This document shows positions 4,300 to 20,340 of a stretch of 28,337 nucleotides of DNA, one piece after another. The first letter of the stretch is position 1. Each line of letters opens with the position of its first letter. Source of the stretch: a virus; IMG/VR virus record IMGVR_UViG_3300020417_002115, positions 1-28,337 of that record. One strand, written 5' to 3'. The notes beneath the pieces are model-generated. The model was given only the letters and a program-made list of their open reading frames with translations. It made no database searches and was not told the origin of the DNA. The position numbers and the translations under genes are program-made.

Positions 4300-5676
4300 T
4301 TAGTCTCCAAATTTAATACCTTGTGCTAATGGTAATGATTTTCCGTAGTTGATTGTGACTGTGCTTCTACGCATATATTGTTTCCATGCATCAGAACCAG
4401 ACTCACGTCCACCACCAGTGTCTTTCTCACCACCGAATGCACCGCCTATTTCCGCACCGCTTGGTCCAATGTTAATATTAACAATACCACAATCAGAACC
4501 TACTGCTGATGTAAAGGTTTCTGCTTCTTGCACATTGTCAGTGAATATACAAGAACTTAATCCTTGCGGAACTGCGTTATGAATACTTATTGCTTCTTCT
4601 AAATCGTTATACTTTAACACATACAAAATGGGTGCAAAGGTCTCAGTCTTAACTAAATCACATTGTTCACTAGCCTCAACTATTGCTGGTCTCATAGTAC
4701 AACCTTCTACAACCTCACCACCATGAACTGTGTAACCTTTTTCTTTTGCCTGTTGTAAAACTGATTGCATTCTATCTGCTGATTCCTGATTTATAAGTGG
4801 ACCAACTAGTGTTTCTTCTTTAAAATTATCTCCTACTGGTAAACTTGCATAAGCAGACTTTAATTTTTGTAACAATACATCATACACAGAATTATGCACA
4901 ATTAATCTTCTTAATGTGGTACATCTCTGACCTGCTGTACCAACTGCACCAAATACAATACCTCTTACTGCTAAATCTATATTGGCATATCTAGATACAA
5001 TCATACCATTGTTTCCACCTAGTTCATATAAACCTTTACCCATTCTTGCGGAAACTCTTGGAGCCAATGCTTTACCCATTGCTGTAGAACCTGTGGCACT
5101 TAACAAATTGATTCGCGAATCATCTGCCATCCATTCTGCTTCAGTTTTATCTCCATCAACAATTTGTAATAAATCTTTAAATTTTTCATCTGGAAAAAAG
5201 CATTCACTGATTGCTTTGTCCCATGCCCACTTGCAACGTCCTGTAACTTCAGTAGATTTAGGTGAACCTTTCCATACTACACTATTTCCGCACACCATCG
5301 CTATACAATGATTCCATGCCCAAACGGCACAAGGAAAATTAAAGGCAGTAATTACACCCACAACTCCTAATGGATTGTAAACTTCTTGCAATTTGTGTTC
5401 AGGTCTTTCACTTTGTATTGTTAAACCATACAACTGTCTAGAAAGTCCTACTGCGAAATCACACATATCAATTGCTTCTTGCACTTCACCAATTGCTTCT
5501 GCGTGTATCTTTTTTGCGTCTTTCATAATGGCTGTACCAATCTTCTCAATGTCTTGTCTTAGATGATTGCCAAAGACTCTGATTACTTCACCTCTTTTAG
5601 GTGCTGGTACAGTTCGCCATTCTTTTTGAATTGTTATTGCTCTTTCTATAATGCTATCGTAATCATTCCTGTTCAT
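4300..5676 (-). CDS. Antiquitin-type (ALDH7) aldehyde dehydrogenase, probable aminoadipate-semialdehyde dehydrogenase
   Basis: The 458-residue protein carries ALDH7 hallmarks: VGVITAFNFP, WKGSP, ELGGNN with the general base Glu218, GTAGQRCTT with nucleophile Cys252, and the family-typical end SGAEIGGAFGGEK...GGGRESGSDAWKQY...PLAQGIKF. ALDH7 enzymes oxidise alpha-aminoadipate semialdehyde (in equilibrium with piperideine-6-carboxylate) to alpha-aminoadipate with NAD(P)+. The ATG at 5676 overlaps the dehydrogenase upstream by 14 bases. The frame is open further upstream, but that part lies inside the neighbour. Compared with cellular antiquitins (about 500 residues) the first 40-50 residues are missing, so the N-terminal strands are lost. 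Catalytic residues look intact. The activity on this substrate is inferred from the family and from the neighbour. Confidence 0.9.
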   Translation of the reverse strand: MNRNDYDSIIERAITIQKEWRTVPAPKRGEVIRVFGNHLRQDIEKIGTAIMKDAKKIHAEAIGEVQEAIDMCDFAVGLSRQLYGLTIQSERPEHKLQEVYNPLGVVGVITAFNFPCAVWAWNHCIAMVCGNSVVWKGSPKSTEVTGRCKWAWDKAISECFFPDEKFKDLLQIVDGDKTEAEWMADDSRINLLSATGSTAMGKALAPRVSARMGKGLYELGGNNGMIVSRYANIDLAVRGIVFGAVGTAGQRCTTLRRLIVHNSVYDVLLQKLKSAYASLPVGDNFKEETLVGPLINQESADRMQSVLQQAKEKGYTVHGGEVVEGCTMRPAIVEASEQCDLVKTETFAPILYVLKYNDLEEAISIHNAVPQGLSSCIFTDNVQEAETFTSAVGSDCGIVNINIGPSGAEIGGAFGGEKDTGGGRESGSDAWKQYMRRSTVTINYGKSLPLAQGIKFGD

Positions 5677-6694
5677 ATAGTTTCCCAAATTTATTGCTTG
5701 TGAATATTTCAAAAGGAACATCTTCCTGTTTCTGGAATCCTGAACCTTCTAGTTTGCCTTCTGTGTAGGCTTGTACAACTGCACAAACACCTGAAGCCGT
5801 TGTTCTTTGAATAGCATTCAAAGTTTTATCTCCGTATATTTTCTTTTGGAATGTTCTTTCCTGCAATTTGCCATCTATCATTCCAATCACAGTAATAAAC
5901 ATCACTACCACATCTTTTGTTGTGTATGGAACTTCTTGATCAAACAGATCAATAAATTTTAATTTGTTGTGTTTAAGATTGAGGTCTTCTAACAAAAACT
6001 TCATATTAGAGTGATGTCCTGGATATCTTATTGTTTTGTAACTCATTGTCTTAACTTTGTCGGCATACGTTTCGCACATAGAAGCAACACCACCTGAAGT
6101 ATTGAATGCTTCATATTTGTTTCCATCGATATTCAAATGTTCCAATCCATCCAATGGTTGTACTTTAATTGCTTTACCATTAGAAATCACATCAACGTCA
6201 TTAATATATTCATTAATTAAACCTGACGTTGACCATGTCAAATAATAAGCCATACTGTTTGCTGTGTACATAGGCAACGCACCTACTCTCATTTTAACTT
6301 TGTCTACTCTACTAAATTGTTTGATTAAATCTGCCGCGATAATGTTTACTGCTCCAGGAGCCAATCCACATTGTGGCATCATGAATGCTTCTGTCTTTAA
6401 ACCTTTGATGTGATCTGATACTGCAACGTCTTCTGTCAAATCAAAGTACGCCACATCATTTGCCGCACAGGCATCTGCTATTGAAATATTTGCATCATAG
6501 GATGCACAACTGACTACTATGTCTTTGTCTTTAATGAATTCTGTTAATGCTGATTCGTCATTAGCATCTATATGGATTGCATTTTTAATTTCTGTATTTG
6601 CATCTATTAAAAATACTTCGTGCTTTTCTCTCTTTAAAAATGCATTTACGATCTTGCCGATCTTTCCGGCGCCTACTACACAAATTTTTGCCAT
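5663..6694 (-). CDS. Saccharopine dehydrogenase-family protein, probable lysine 6-dehydrogenase or saccharopine dehydrogenase
   Basis: A 343-residue oxidoreductase. The N-terminus has a Rossmann nucleotide-binding motif (CVVGAGKIGK, GxGxxG). After it come the saccharopine-dehydrogenase-type stretches MPQCGLAPGAVNIIA, TWSTSGLINEY and KTIRYPGHHSNMKF. The family includes saccharopine dehydrogenase (saccharopine to glutamate plus aminoadipate semialdehyde) and lysine 6-dehydrogenase (lysine to piperideine-6-carboxylate). The GLAPG form and the length of about 340 residues lean towards lysine dehydrogenase. The gene starts 3 bases after the 79-aa gene and overlaps the ALDH7 gene by 14 bases, so both enzymes are made together as two consecutive steps of lysine oxidation. 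No lysine-ketoglutarate reductase is visible. Carboxynorspermidine synthase is a less likely alternative. Confidence 0.85.
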   Translation of the reverse strand: MAKICVVGAGKIGKIVNAFLKREKHEVFLIDANTEIKNAIHIDANDESALTEFIKDKDIVVSCASYDANISIADACAANDVAYFDLTEDVAVSDHIKGLKTEAFMMPQCGLAPGAVNIIAADLIKQFSRVDKVKMRVGALPMYTANSMAYYLTWSTSGLINEYINDVDVISNGKAIKVQPLDGLEHLNIDGNKYEAFNTSGGVASMCETYADKVKTMSYKTIRYPGHHSNMKFLLEDLNLKHNKLKFIDLFDQEVPYTTKDVVVMFITVIGMIDGKLQERTFQKKIYGDKTLNAIQRTTASGVCAVVQAYTEGKLEGSGFQKQEDVPFEIFTSNKFGKLYEQE

Positions 6695-9749: not shown

Positions 9750-9961
9750 ATCAAATTAGGATCCGTTCTATGATAAATGAAAGGATCATCAGTTTCAATT
9801 CCTTTAAGTAATTTTAATCTTGTTTCTAATGCATCTATTGTTGTGTAGATATGTCCTGTATCGTGTTCTTCAATACAACTTTTAAAATATTTTATTTCGT
9901 CTTCTAATACTTTAATTTTGATCAGATCCCACTTGCTGGTCAGTCTCTTTTTTCTCGGCAT
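9746..9961 (-). CDS. 71-aa coiled-coil protein between heme oxygenase and bilin reductase
   Basis: This frame overlaps the heme oxygenase gene by 50 bases and the bilin reductase gene by four (ATGA). It begins at an ATG preceded by AAGGA at 5 bases. The N-terminus is basic (MPRKKRLTSKWDLIK), then a helical segment (VLEDEIKYFKSCIEEHDTGHI, TTIDALETRLKLL) suggests a helical hairpin or dimer. Similar small DTGHI proteins occur in marine T4-like phages, as far as I can recall; no function is known. It ties the two pigment genes into one translationally coupled unit. Confidence 0.6.
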   Translation of the reverse strand: MPRKKRLTSKWDLIKIKVLEDEIKYFKSCIEEHDTGHIYTTIDALETRLKLLKGIETDDPFIYHRTDPNLI

Positions 9962-10484
9962 ACAATTCCTTGAATAGTTCTGTTGCGTATTCAAAACAAA
10001 GTTTGGCTTCTTCTGCCATGCTGTCATTTGTTTTTGATCTTATTATTTCTTTTGTTTCTTTAATATCACAATCAAACTCATACATTGTGCCTTTGCCAGG
10101 TGCTCTCTTTTTAATCATTTGACCACCGGATAAGTCACCCATATGTCTAACGTAGATGTGTGCCATTAGTTTTTCAGGATCGTCTTTGATATTAAAAATG
10201 TGTCTAACATATCGTTCAGTAGATTCAGTTAATGCAGGATTCTCAGACTGTTTCCATAGTTCTTGGAAGTCCGCTAATATTTTTGGTGCTCTACGCACAG
10301 TTGGAAAGTCATTGAATAGACTGTTTGCCATTGCACAGGCTTCTAACAAATTGTATATTGCGTGTTGGTTCCAAAGAAACTTGGCATACATTTCATCAGA
10401 CATTTTGCCTGACATAAGTTCATGAACGAAGTCTTGTCTTTCTGCTTGTTTGTGTACTTCTTTGGTTAATTCTTTTAGGCTCAT
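9912..10484 (-). CDS. ho1: Heme oxygenase
   Basis: A 190-residue heme oxygenase of the HO-1 fold. His11 (KEVHKQAE) fits the proximal heme ligand, and YVRHMGDLSGGQ (about 111-122) is the distal-helix signature with its flexible glycines. The reaction opens heme to biliverdin IX-alpha, Fe2+ and CO using reduced ferredoxin and O2. It is shorter than cyanobacterial HO1 (about 240 residues), with the loss at the C-terminus. It overlaps clpS by ATGA and is followed by the 71-aa gene and the bilin reductase that would use its product. Ferredoxin must come from the host, since none is encoded here. Confidence 0.92.
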   Translation of the reverse strand: MSLKELTKEVHKQAERQDFVHELMSGKMSDEMYAKFLWNQHAIYNLLEACAMANSLFNDFPTVRRAPKILADFQELWKQSENPALTESTERYVRHIFNIKDDPEKLMAHIYVRHMGDLSGGQMIKKRAPGKGTMYEFDCDIKETKEIIRSKTNDSMAEEAKLCFEYATELFKELYAEKKETDQQVGSDQN

Positions 10485-10786
10485 TCAGATTCTATTTTTA
10501 CTTGTAAAGGGAAACCTCTGCTTCTACTTTCATTGGTTGCTTCTGTTCCTTTTTGTTCTGCTATTTCATATGTATATACACCACACACTGCCGAACCTTC
10601 GTTGTGGATTTTGATTGTAAGGTCTTTTGCTGTTTCTGGTGTGTGTCTAAATATTTTGACTAGCAATTCAATGACGAAATCCATTGGAGTCACATCATCA
10701 TTTAACAATATCACTGAATAGTTTTCTGGTTCCTTTGTCAGTGCCTTTACTTTCGAATCTACTTTTACTTCTAAATCTGTTGTCAT
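10481..10786 (-). CDS. clpS: ClpS, adaptor of the ClpAP protease
   Basis: A 101-residue ClpS. The binding-pocket residues are present: NDDVTPMDFV (N29-D30-D31, T33, P34), His61 in IKIHNEGSAVCGVYTYEIAE, and the C-terminal strand FPLQVKIE. ClpS delivers N-degron substrates to ClpA/ClpP, so a phage copy could redirect host proteolysis (inference). It overlaps the heme oxygenase gene by ATGA. A perfect stem with a GCAA loop (10808-10829) separates it from hsp20 upstream. Confidence 0.93.
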   Translation of the reverse strand: MTTDLEVKVDSKVKALTKEPENYSVILLNDDVTPMDFVIELLVKIFRHTPETAKDLTIKIHNEGSAVCGVYTYEIAEQKGTEATNESRSRGFPLQVKIESE

Positions 10787-10839: not shown

Positions 10840-11289
10840 TTACTTAACTTCAATAGTTCTTGCTTTTTTACCTTCTGGAATTATACGTTCCATAGATACT
10901 TTTAGCAAACCATCTTTAAGTTCTGCTCCCTTTACTTCTACATCATCAGCAATAGTAAATGATTTTGAAAACCATCTCTTGCTAATACCTCTGTGAAGTA
11001 CACCATCTGCATCTTTGGCTTCGGACTTATCCTTTTCCTTAGATTTTACAGTCAACATATTGTCTTTGTACTCTACATCTATGTCCTTTTTATTGAAACC
11101 TGCAAGTGCAAGTTCCACGTCATAAGTGTATTCACCAGTCTTCACTATGTTGTATGGTGGAAAGTTTGTAGCAGAAGGCATTCTGTAAATGTCATTTTCG
11201 AACATTCTTTCAAAATGATCGAACACATTGTCGAATCCTACTGTTACTGGTCTTAATTGATTGAATATAGATAGTGCTTTATTTGTCAT
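10840..11289 (-). CDS. hsp20: Small heat shock protein Hsp20 (IbpA type)
   Basis: A 149-residue Hsp20 chaperone. The alpha-crystallin domain covers about residues 42-130 (PYNIVKTGEYTYDVELALAGFNKKDIDVEY to GLLKVSMERIIPE), and the C-terminal I-E-V in RTIEVK is the I-x-I/V motif used for oligomer contacts. It holds unfolding proteins without ATP. The RBS is strong (AAGGAGG). Two control elements lie upstream: a sigma70-like promoter (11378-11407) and a GATAAATA box (11353-11360). T4-like marine phages often carry Hsp20, probably to aid virion assembly. Confidence 0.95.
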   Translation of the reverse strand: MTNKALSIFNQLRPVTVGFDNVFDHFERMFENDIYRMPSATNFPPYNIVKTGEYTYDVELALAGFNKKDIDVEYKDNMLTVKSKEKDKSEAKDADGVLHRGISKRWFSKSFTIADDVEVKGAELKDGLLKVSMERIIPEGKKARTIEVK

Positions 11290-16599: not shown

Positions 16600-17103
16600 T
16601 TACTTATCCAATGTGTATTCAAAATTTTGCGACCAAACATTTCTTTGTAATAGTTTGGCACCATTTCTTTTATGAAATTTTTCAGCCATTTCTGTCAATG
16701 GACTTAATGTGACCAGTCTAGTAAGATGGTTGGAACTTGTAATCATTTTATGCACTTCGTTCACAATCATTCTACCGCCACCTTTTTTCAAACTCCAGAC
16801 TGTATATGCCACTGCTATTTTGCCTTGTTGTCCTACTCTATGCACGGACTCTAAATGTGCCACTTCACTCAACTTGTCTAATTCATACAAAGTCTTTGGT
16901 ACTTCATTAGTGTATGCGAAACACATCACAGCCATCAAGTCTTTTCCATATTTGAGACCAAACATTTTTCTACCATGATTTGTTCGCCACGCAACAGGCA
17001 GATCAGGTCTTATAGGATCTTTACTGATGTCTATATCCTTGAGTTCAATCAACTCTGCTTTTTTAAGCCAATCAAAACTAAAATTTATTTTGGGTATCTT
17101 CAT
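16600..17103 (-). CDS. GNAT-like acetyltransferase fold protein
   Basis: A 167-residue protein whose order of elements resembles GNAT: a beta-strand with HLESVHRVGQQGKIAVAYTVWSLKKGGGRMIVNEVHKM (strand, basic/Gly-rich turn in the acetyl-CoA loop position, helix), followed by LVTLSPLTEMAEKFHKRNGAKLL, which matches the final GNAT helix before the F-H-x-R-x-G-A segment. Acetyl-CoA binding is therefore plausible, but the classical Q/RxxGxG/A motif is weak. Its 5' end overlaps the 44-aa membrane gene. The substrate is unknown. Confidence 0.5.
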   Translation of the reverse strand: MKIPKINFSFDWLKKAELIELKDIDISKDPIRPDLPVAWRTNHGRKMFGLKYGKDLMAVMCFAYTNEVPKTLYELDKLSEVAHLESVHRVGQQGKIAVAYTVWSLKKGGGRMIVNEVHKMITSSNHLTRLVTLSPLTEMAEKFHKRNGAKLLQRNVWSQNFEYTLDK

Positions 17104-19189: not shown

Positions 19190-19265
19190 AATAGACTCCT
19201 TTCACAATATTATTTAGATTGTTAATGTGTGAAGTTCTGTGCAAAGATAAGTTATAAGATGTGTT

Positions 19266-19293
19266 AAAAGTGTGGGAGTCGAAACTCCCACAC
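19266..19293 (-). terminator. Terminator of the tmRNA gene
   Basis: GTGTGGGAG and CTCCCACAC form a perfect 9-bp stem with a TTTCGA loop, followed by TTTT. Confidence 0.8.
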
Positions 19294-19592
19294 CTGACTA
19301 TTTCTGTTGCCCGGCTAGTCTACTCCGCCAAGTGGCCGGTTATTAAGCGGCAACCAATTCCGCATCAGCGAATATGCTGACTGGAACTGTCACTTCTGGT
19401 TTAAATGCGTTAGCATTTGTAAAAGATCCTTTACAGAGATCAACTGGTAAACTCCATGTGCTTTTATGCTCCGGTCGAACCTATATCACCCCCTCGAAAT
19501 AAACCAGACTATTTCAAATGAGCGAATTTGGTGGAGGTGGTCGGTACTGCCCCGACGTCCCAAAAGTGTATTACACACACTTCAACGCCTAC
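19266..19592 (-). ncRNA. ssrA: Circularly permuted (two-piece) tmRNA, ssrA
   Basis: The minus-strand order is acceptor piece, then spacer, then coding piece. The acceptor piece ends CACCTCC-ACCA at 19539-19529, preceded by a T-arm GTCGG-GGCAGTA-CCGAC (19556-19540). After a 35-base spacer (19528-19494) the coding piece begins GGGGGTGATATAGGTTCGACC (from 19493). GGGGGTG pairs with CACCTCC over 7 bp and includes a G3-U70 pair, the alanine identity element. The tag frame, about 23 codons from GCT at 19414, ends ...ADAELVAA followed by TAA TAA (19345-19340). The intervening sequence can itself fold (GAAATA/TATTTC). The promoter at 19598-19626 and the terminator at 19266-19293 frame it. tmRNA with SmpB rescues stalled ribosomes and tags proteins. 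Permuted tmRNAs are known from alphaproteobacteria, some cyanobacteria and some betaproteobacteria. Confidence 0.92.
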
Positions 19593-19597
19593 AGTGT

Positions 19598-19626
19598 ATT
19601 TAAACAGATTTTTATGTGTTTGTCAA
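19598..19626 (-). promoter_or_regulatory. Sigma70-like promoter for the tmRNA
   Basis: TTGACA, 17-base spacer, TTAAAT. It overlaps the stop of the 65-aa gene and would start the precursor near 19591. Confidence 0.65.
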
Positions 19627-19820
19627 GACTTGACTGGCGACCATCTACCATCTTCGTTTCTTACTTTGTCGTTGTGTTCAACTAGTATGGTAAATGTCTT
19701 AACGTCTTTGAATTCCTTACCATGTGCGAAAGTAAACTCATGACCTTTGTCAGTTTTACTTTTCCAATAGTGTTGGAAGTCTGTGATAACCATTTTATCT
19801 TTTTTAACTTTAATTGCCAT
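19623..19820 (-). CDS. Hypothetical protein, 65 aa, just upstream of tmRNA
   Basis: A small basic protein (MAIKVKKDKMVITDFQHYWK) with a predicted beta-rich body (FTFAHGKEFKDVKTFTILVEHNDKVR). No family is recognised. The ATG at 19820 lies 6 bases after a -10 box (19827-19832), which rules out the longer frame and suggests a leaderless message. Its stop codon overlaps the -35 box of the tmRNA promoter, so the tmRNA follows directly. Confidence 0.55.
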   Translation of the reverse strand: MAIKVKKDKMVITDFQHYWKSKTDKGHEFTFAHGKEFKDVKTFTILVEHNDKVRNEDGRWSPVKS

Positions 19821-20160: not shown

Positions 20161-20340
20161 TTACATAGAGTTTTTCTTCTCTTGTATTTCTTTTCTTCTT
20201 ACTTTTGTTGCCTTACCTAGTAAGCCAAGAGCCTTTCTTGCTCTCGCCGCCGCCGCTTTTACACCTTTTGTTTCAAAGGCTTCTGATTCAGCGATATAAC
20301 TTTCAAAGGCTTGTTTTATTTCGTCATGTGTTTGTGACAT
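20161..20340 (-). CDS. Basic, alanine/lysine-rich 59-aa protein (histone-like)
   Basis: A short gene with a clear RBS (AAAGGAG, 7 bases from ATG). The middle is GVKAAAARARKALGLLGKAT and the end is KVRRKEIQEKKNSM, reminiscent of small histone H1-like or nucleoid-associated proteins, so DNA binding is a reasonable guess. It overlaps the HAD phosphatase gene by 17 bases and ends 12 bases before the terminator hairpin that closes the nrd operon. It is likely a genuine last gene of that operon. Confidence 0.65.
   Translation of the reverse strand: MSQTHDEIKQAFESYIAESEAFETKGVKAAAARARKALGLLGKATKVRRKEIQEKKNSM

Follow-up and report, generated by a model that had tools for sequence, protein, structure and literature searches.

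A permuted transfer-messenger RNA with a long, conserved tag in an undescribed virus lineage that carries Clp genes

Transfer-messenger RNA (tmRNA) is alanylated, is bound by SmpB, frees ribosomes stalled on broken mRNAs and adds a tag. Here we describe a tmRNA gene of the circularly permuted, two-piece form, complete and on the minus strand of IMG/VR virus record IMGVR_UViG_3300020417_002115, a fragment of 28,337 nucleotides from a marine virus of bacteria that was analysed over its full length and is hereafter called the window. The gene resembles alphaproteobacterial tmRNA (Rfam RF01849), including the ssrA RNA of SAR11 bacteria, in its permuted order, the T-loop GGCAGTA, a G3–U70 pair and a 3′ motif, the window's GGGCAACAGAA fitting the alphaproteobacterial GGCAACAGAA; it also shares the SAR11 resume site AAAT-GCN-AAC. 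It departs from SAR11 ssrA in the sequences of P2 and the pseudoknot, in its score against the permuted tmRNA model RF04321 (84.5 bits, compared with 127–131 bits for SAR11) and in its tag, which has 23 residues, whereas the eight SAR11 tmRNAs read encode the 9-residue ANESYA[LI]AA. The original prediction, made from the letters of the window, had suggested comparing the tag with those of SAR11, and the two prove to be different; the window's tag pattern is also absent from 397 SAR11-order genomes.

Permuted tmRNAs of the alpha type are already known from marine tailed phages, namely the OM43 phage Melnitz and the Pelagibacter phage Mosig, in a study that also describes a glutamine riboswitch and in which 53 two-piece tmRNAs were predicted across phage genomes (PMC9004378), and the tmRNA database holds 79 unique tmRNAs from bacteriophages, every form included (PMC11915505). 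The Mosig RNA scores 93.6 bits; unlike the window, Mosig has a short tag, GEDNFALAA as read by ARAGORN, and no ClpS. In the window, cmscan found no Rfam riboswitch above threshold, and a blastn search of the window's tmRNA against 50,697 phage records gave no nucleotide match. The Sinorhizobium phage Phosso is likewise a jumbo T4-like phage with a permuted tmRNA, ClpA and ClpS, but its tag is an ordinary one of 13 residues, ANDNVSTKVALAA, and a very long segment of approximately 400 nucleotides separates its CCA and 5′ pieces. AP-J-162, another Sinorhizobium jumbo phage, combines a tmRNA with Clp genes (PMC11242549) and is likened to the window here by its published description only; apart from it, nothing relevant on tmRNA together with ClpA or ClpS in phage genomes was found in the papers searched for the combination, and neither the long conserved tag lineage nor its Clp set appeared in the literature searched. 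The prediction of a virus-encoded permuted alpha-type tmRNA is thus right without being new in itself, and the new part is an undescribed virus lineage with a long conserved tag. The original prediction did not include the family to which this tag belongs, the Clp genes or the shortened tag given by ARAGORN.

Two covariance models match the gene over their full lengths in a cmscan of the window: alpha_tmRNA, the model with which the original prediction proposed to check the locus, at 85.2 bits (RF01849, E = 5e-22, gathering cut-off 50) and tmRNA_permuted at the score given above (gathering cut-off 47). ARAGORN also calls a permuted tmRNA at nearly the same minus-strand site, where the gene had been predicted. 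The CCA-bearing piece stands ahead of the 5′, or coding, piece. All seven acceptor pairs form, as predicted, and do so in 25 of 25 relatives, with G3–U70 invariant. In these 25 relatives, 32 pairs were counted in four helices (acceptor, T-stem, P2 and one at the 3′ side), and 95.2% are standard (acceptor 100%, T-stem 94%, segments of P2, which joins the two pieces by pairing, 98–100%), and both sides have changed at 16 pairs. Double changes fill 80 cells; shuffled controls average 25, and sliding the partner strand leaves 1–9. One relative (L351) has a compensated acceptor stem, GGGGUGG/CCACUCC, that retains G3–U70. The helices backed by covariation are the acceptor, the T-stem and P2.

The tag reading frame, which the original prediction put at about 23 codons, has exactly 23, ANAFKPEVTVPVSIFADAELVAA. 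Its resume codon GCT starts at 19414, and the context ACAAAT-GCT-AAC … GTT-GCC-GCT-TAA is conserved in relatives; the tag closes on a hydrophobic residue and AA, in the form ELVAA, followed by a stop. Of the predicted AELVAA end with two stops, both parts are present in the window (TAA TAA), but the second stop is not conserved and most relatives read TAAT-ACC. ARAGORN reports only ADAELVAA, the last 8 of the 23 residues, in the window and in a 148-kb relative (contig G011), although for certain other relatives it gives the tag in full. This truncation is a warning to annotators, as automated annotation will often misread the tag of this lineage.

When IMG/VR was scanned with a portion of the tag, 43 other contigs with the same tag type were recovered. 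A second scan, based on the 5′ leader and therefore not selecting on the tag, returned these 43 contigs again, together with an AK... variant of the tag, a sister type of 24 residues (ANKRFVSEV[TK][IV]P[AS]NF[LF]VGSEL[MLV]AA and kin) and a type of 22 residues, ANRKALGFADLTVGMSKMRLAA. A third scan, which took alpha-type T-arms only, added a 23-residue relative of the 22-residue type, AKQKALGFADLTVLAQPEMRLAA. The window's own tag lineage recurs in about 50 viral contigs, and none of its complete copies has lost the tag frame, the resume site or the stop. Two of the tag types, designated A and B, have EVT[VI]P and EL[VM]AA in common at matching places, with 8 of 17 identities in the tag core. Among the leader-selected relatives, the ratio of non-synonymous to synonymous polymorphism (pN/pS) is about 0.28 within type A, the type of the window's tag, and 0.35 within type B; the sister lineages have related or other tags of 22–24 residues that are under constraint at the peptide level. 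At the 96 readable loci among the T-arm matches listed, tags have 9–15 or 22–24 residues and none falls between. Four 23-residue tags from the T-arm scan are doubtful; the reading AKKLNARTASNDNVPYSAMKIAA in L079, L089, L100 and L120 was set aside, its resume site being unclear. Neither a search of PDB chains for a relative of the 23-residue tag nor tblastn of the 23- and 24-residue tags in phages gave a match, queries so short having little power.

In contrast to the tag, the tRNA-like part of the RNA is unstable. The T-loop GGCAGTA had been reported correctly and singled out as unusual; the sequence stands and the oddity does not, because the Rfam consensus for alpha tmRNA reads GGC[AG]GTA and GGCAGTA is present in 8 of the 8 SAR11 host tmRNAs read. 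It was therefore ruled out as an oddity, being the alpha norm. Nor is it stable within the lineage: contigs with the window's tag type have the T-arm GTCGG-GGCAGTA-CCGAC, GAGGG-TTCGACT-CCCTC or GCGGG-TTCAACT-CCCGC, and 18 close relatives sharing that tag type have TTC[GA]ACT T-loops. In every case the matching D-arm segment switches along with the T-arm type, and part of the segment between the two arms follows. When the tree is made from the mRNA-like region only, the T-arm type requires seven changes, and for the TTC[GA]ACT type at least five changes are forced by well-supported branches. The simplest reading of these sequences is that the whole tRNA-like cassette has been exchanged by recombination between co-infecting relatives while the tag did not move, although coevolution of D-loop and T-loop is not separable from cassette exchange as an account of the joint switching. 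The tag peptide is held by selection, and within this mosaic RNA it is the part that stays constant. Since the T-arm type switches several times under a constant tag, it cannot reveal the host; the T-loop was ruled out as a host marker. Separately, three contigs with a type B tag (L329, L330 and L348) have a T-arm that is 2 nucleotides short, read as CGGGC-TCGAT-GCCCG or as 4 base pairs with a 7-nucleotide loop.

The gene also has flanking elements of its own (Table 1). The exact TTGACA/TTTAAAT arrangement occurs once in the window, with 0.04 occurrences expected, and in 31 relatives the boxes TTGAC and CTGTTTAAATA are kept, a fixed distance apart, while the sequence between them has diverged, which bears out the predicted promoter. 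The predicted terminator fared less well. A strong hairpin (−18.8 kcal/mol, z = −5.65) lies at the 3′ end and its stem is conserved in relatives, but the U-run is only four long here and often absent in relatives, and a scan of the window for intrinsic terminators under a 5-T rule found none. A terminator is plausible; the hairpin may be that or a 3′-end processing element.

Table 1 Coordinates of the tmRNA gene, its elements and the proposed partner gene in the window
Feature	Position	Strand	Evidence or remark
Permuted tmRNA gene (extent of Rfam match)	19293–19630	−	RF01849 85.2 bits, RF04321 84.5 bits; ARAGORN 19252–19624
Promoter: TTGACA (19626–19621) and TTTAAAT (19604–19598), TG just upstream	19598–19626	−	Pattern count and conservation
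T-arm GTCGG-GGCAGTA-CCGAC, in the first (CCA) piece	19540–19556	−	T-stem with both sides changed at 3 of 5 pairs
Acceptor 3′ strand CACCUCC (19539–19533) and ACCA (19532–19529)	19529–19539	−	Partner is 19493–19487
Acceptor 5′ strand GGGGGUG, opening the coding piece	19487–19493	−	Rfam match and covariation in relatives
Tag reading frame, 23 codons, ANAFKPEVTVPVSIFADAELVAA, then TAA TAA (19345–19340)	19346–19414	−	Resume site ACAAAT-GCT
3′ hairpin, possible intrinsic terminator or 3′-end element	19270–19293	−	Folding energy and conservation
clpS, Clp protease adaptor, proposed partner	10481–10786	−	PF02617, E = 1.2e-30

The wider lineage is best seen in G011, which is syntenic with the 28-kb window at 77–85% identity over most of the window's length and whose DNA polymerase has its closest counterpart in Phosso. 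The window encodes a ClpS adaptor that has matches in only 19 of the 50,697 named phage records, and ClpS was present in all 12 long-tag contigs of more than 30 kb tested. G011 combines ClpS with a full-length ClpA of 749 residues (TIGR02639, 878 bits, under the curated cut-off of 993), whose gene adjoins DnaJ, an arrangement also present in Phosso, Atu_ph07 and PA5oct, and with two ClpP-like proteins in which Ser, His and Asp are found by eye where expected. In another phage lineage (L052, L046, L065 and L114; tag ANDDYYDYALAA), clpS lies approximately 0.7 kb upstream of a permuted tmRNA.

Nucleotide matches tentatively suggest a SAR11 host. In a 20-kb DNA search covering 58 SAR11-order genomes, the window's hsp20 (10840–11289) and GNAT (16600–17103) genes have 66–72% identity to SAR11 genes, a suggestive likeness that may be a host signal, and the best nucleotide match of the window among phages is Pelagibacter phage Mosig, by way of NrdB. 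Among 40 SAR11-order genomes, some possibly incomplete, ClpS was found in 5 and a full ClpA in 4.

Taken together, the RNA architecture, the conservation of promoter and tag and the Clp gene content, all drawn from sequence comparison, are best explained by a working phage-borne tmRNA of the alpha two-piece type that uses host SmpB and whose tag leads to Clp proteolysis, an account that we regard as probable. Processing, charging, use of SmpB, tagging and the route of degradation are the steps that we infer. Transcription would start at the gene's own sigma-70-like promoter, and cleavage of the precursor would yield two pieces, one bearing the CCA and one the coding sequence, which remain paired. 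Alanyl-tRNA synthetase would charge the RNA through G3–U70, host SmpB would bring it to ribosomes stalled on mRNAs broken in infection, and the ribosome would resume at GCT and append the 23-residue tag ending in ELVAA. The tagged product would then pass to Clp proteolysis by host ClpXP, by phage ClpA, ClpS and ClpP-type proteins, or by both. The tag of Caulobacter ends in VAA, which the ELVAA end resembles, and ClpXP could therefore well degrade the tagged product. For the ClpXP route the conserved N-terminal stretch of the tag is longer than necessary, which suggests, as a hypothesis, a second reader such as an adaptor or ClpA.

Several points weigh against this account. Its support for transcription, charging and tagging is comparative throughout, and the conservation of the tag is a partly independent observation, one of the searches having selected on part of it. 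A search of these phage records turned up no SmpB gene, and the account therefore has to presuppose SmpB from the host. A Clp search of the window returned ClpS alone, ClpA and ClpP being absent from the 28-kb fragment, and of the two ClpP-like proteins of G011, the one scanned scored well short of the curated cut-offs for ClpP. The co-occurrence of Clp genes inside the lineage reflects shared ancestry; beyond it, the named jumbo phages Atu_ph07, PA5oct, SCTP-2 and Vibrio 2.275 have ClpA and/or ClpS and no permuted tmRNA match, and Mosig has the tmRNA without ClpS.

The degradation step could take a stronger form, in which the virus runs a tag-and-destroy pathway of its own, the 22–24-residue tag being matched to the phage's Clp proteins rather than to host ClpXP. 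Phage ClpA, together with ClpS and phage ClpP, would be the main reader of the tag, and the products would avoid or supplement host ClpXP. As a special case of the account above, it shares part of the probability given there. G011 holds the tag, ClpA, ClpS and two ClpP-like genes, full ClpA and ClpS are scarce in the SAR11-order genomes sampled (4 and 5 of 40), the phage tag is unlike the SAR11 tag ANESYALAA, and clpS stands close to a permuted tmRNA (approximately 0.7 kb) in the second phage lineage. Nevertheless, the SAR11 host is presumed, Clp-bearing phages often lack the tmRNA and the reverse, and in E. coli ClpS inhibits the degradation of ssrA-tagged proteins by ClpA, which points the opposite way; we consider such a closed pathway unlikely. 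If it were true, the choice of stalled products for destruction, whether viral or of the host, would be under the control of the virus. A little more doubtful is a decoy role, in which the phage tmRNA soaks up SmpB and alanylation and blunts host quality control with the tag as a secondary matter: the tRNA-like part would suffice by itself for this purpose, whereas the intact tag frame, resume site and stop and the constraint on the peptide are things a decoy does not require. A host ssrA acquired by chance, for example by a virus integrating at ssrA, and carried as a non-functional passenger is conceivable in that ssrA is a common integration site and prophages hold ssrA fragments (PMC9004378), but the gene is complete, its promoter, covarying helices and tag constraint extend across the lineage and its tag differs from that of the SAR11 host. 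Covariation contradicts this explanation, and we give it very little credence.

Other genes of the window and its relatives were noted in passing. A heme oxygenase gene lies at 9912–10484 of the window, and G011 (L303:13463–14653) encodes a 5-aminolevulinate synthase (TIGR01821, 544 bits); published aquatic phages likewise carry Shemin-pathway genes (PMC11480375). At 4300–6694, an aldehyde dehydrogenase gene stands beside a saccharopine dehydrogenase-like gene, suggesting phage-borne lysine/aminoadipate metabolism, and in the 328-kb phage G025 (L307) a similar aldehyde dehydrogenase gene adjoins clpP, identified by eye. A 59-residue protein encoded at 20161–20340 matches the histone H1-like Hc1 (PF07432, E = 1.6e-11). 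Near one end of G011, GroEL-like (by eye) and DnaK genes lie on the opposite strand (L303:19546 to L304:3197), where a chimeric end is possible.

This lineage offers a handle on the question of why phages carry ssrA: a long and constant tag, an RNA that has been exchanged around it, with a T-loop type that is no marker of the host, and genes for a Clp adaptor and unfoldase that are rare in the SAR11 genomes sampled. If SAR11 is the host, the phage would supply Clp components that are missing from most of its hosts.
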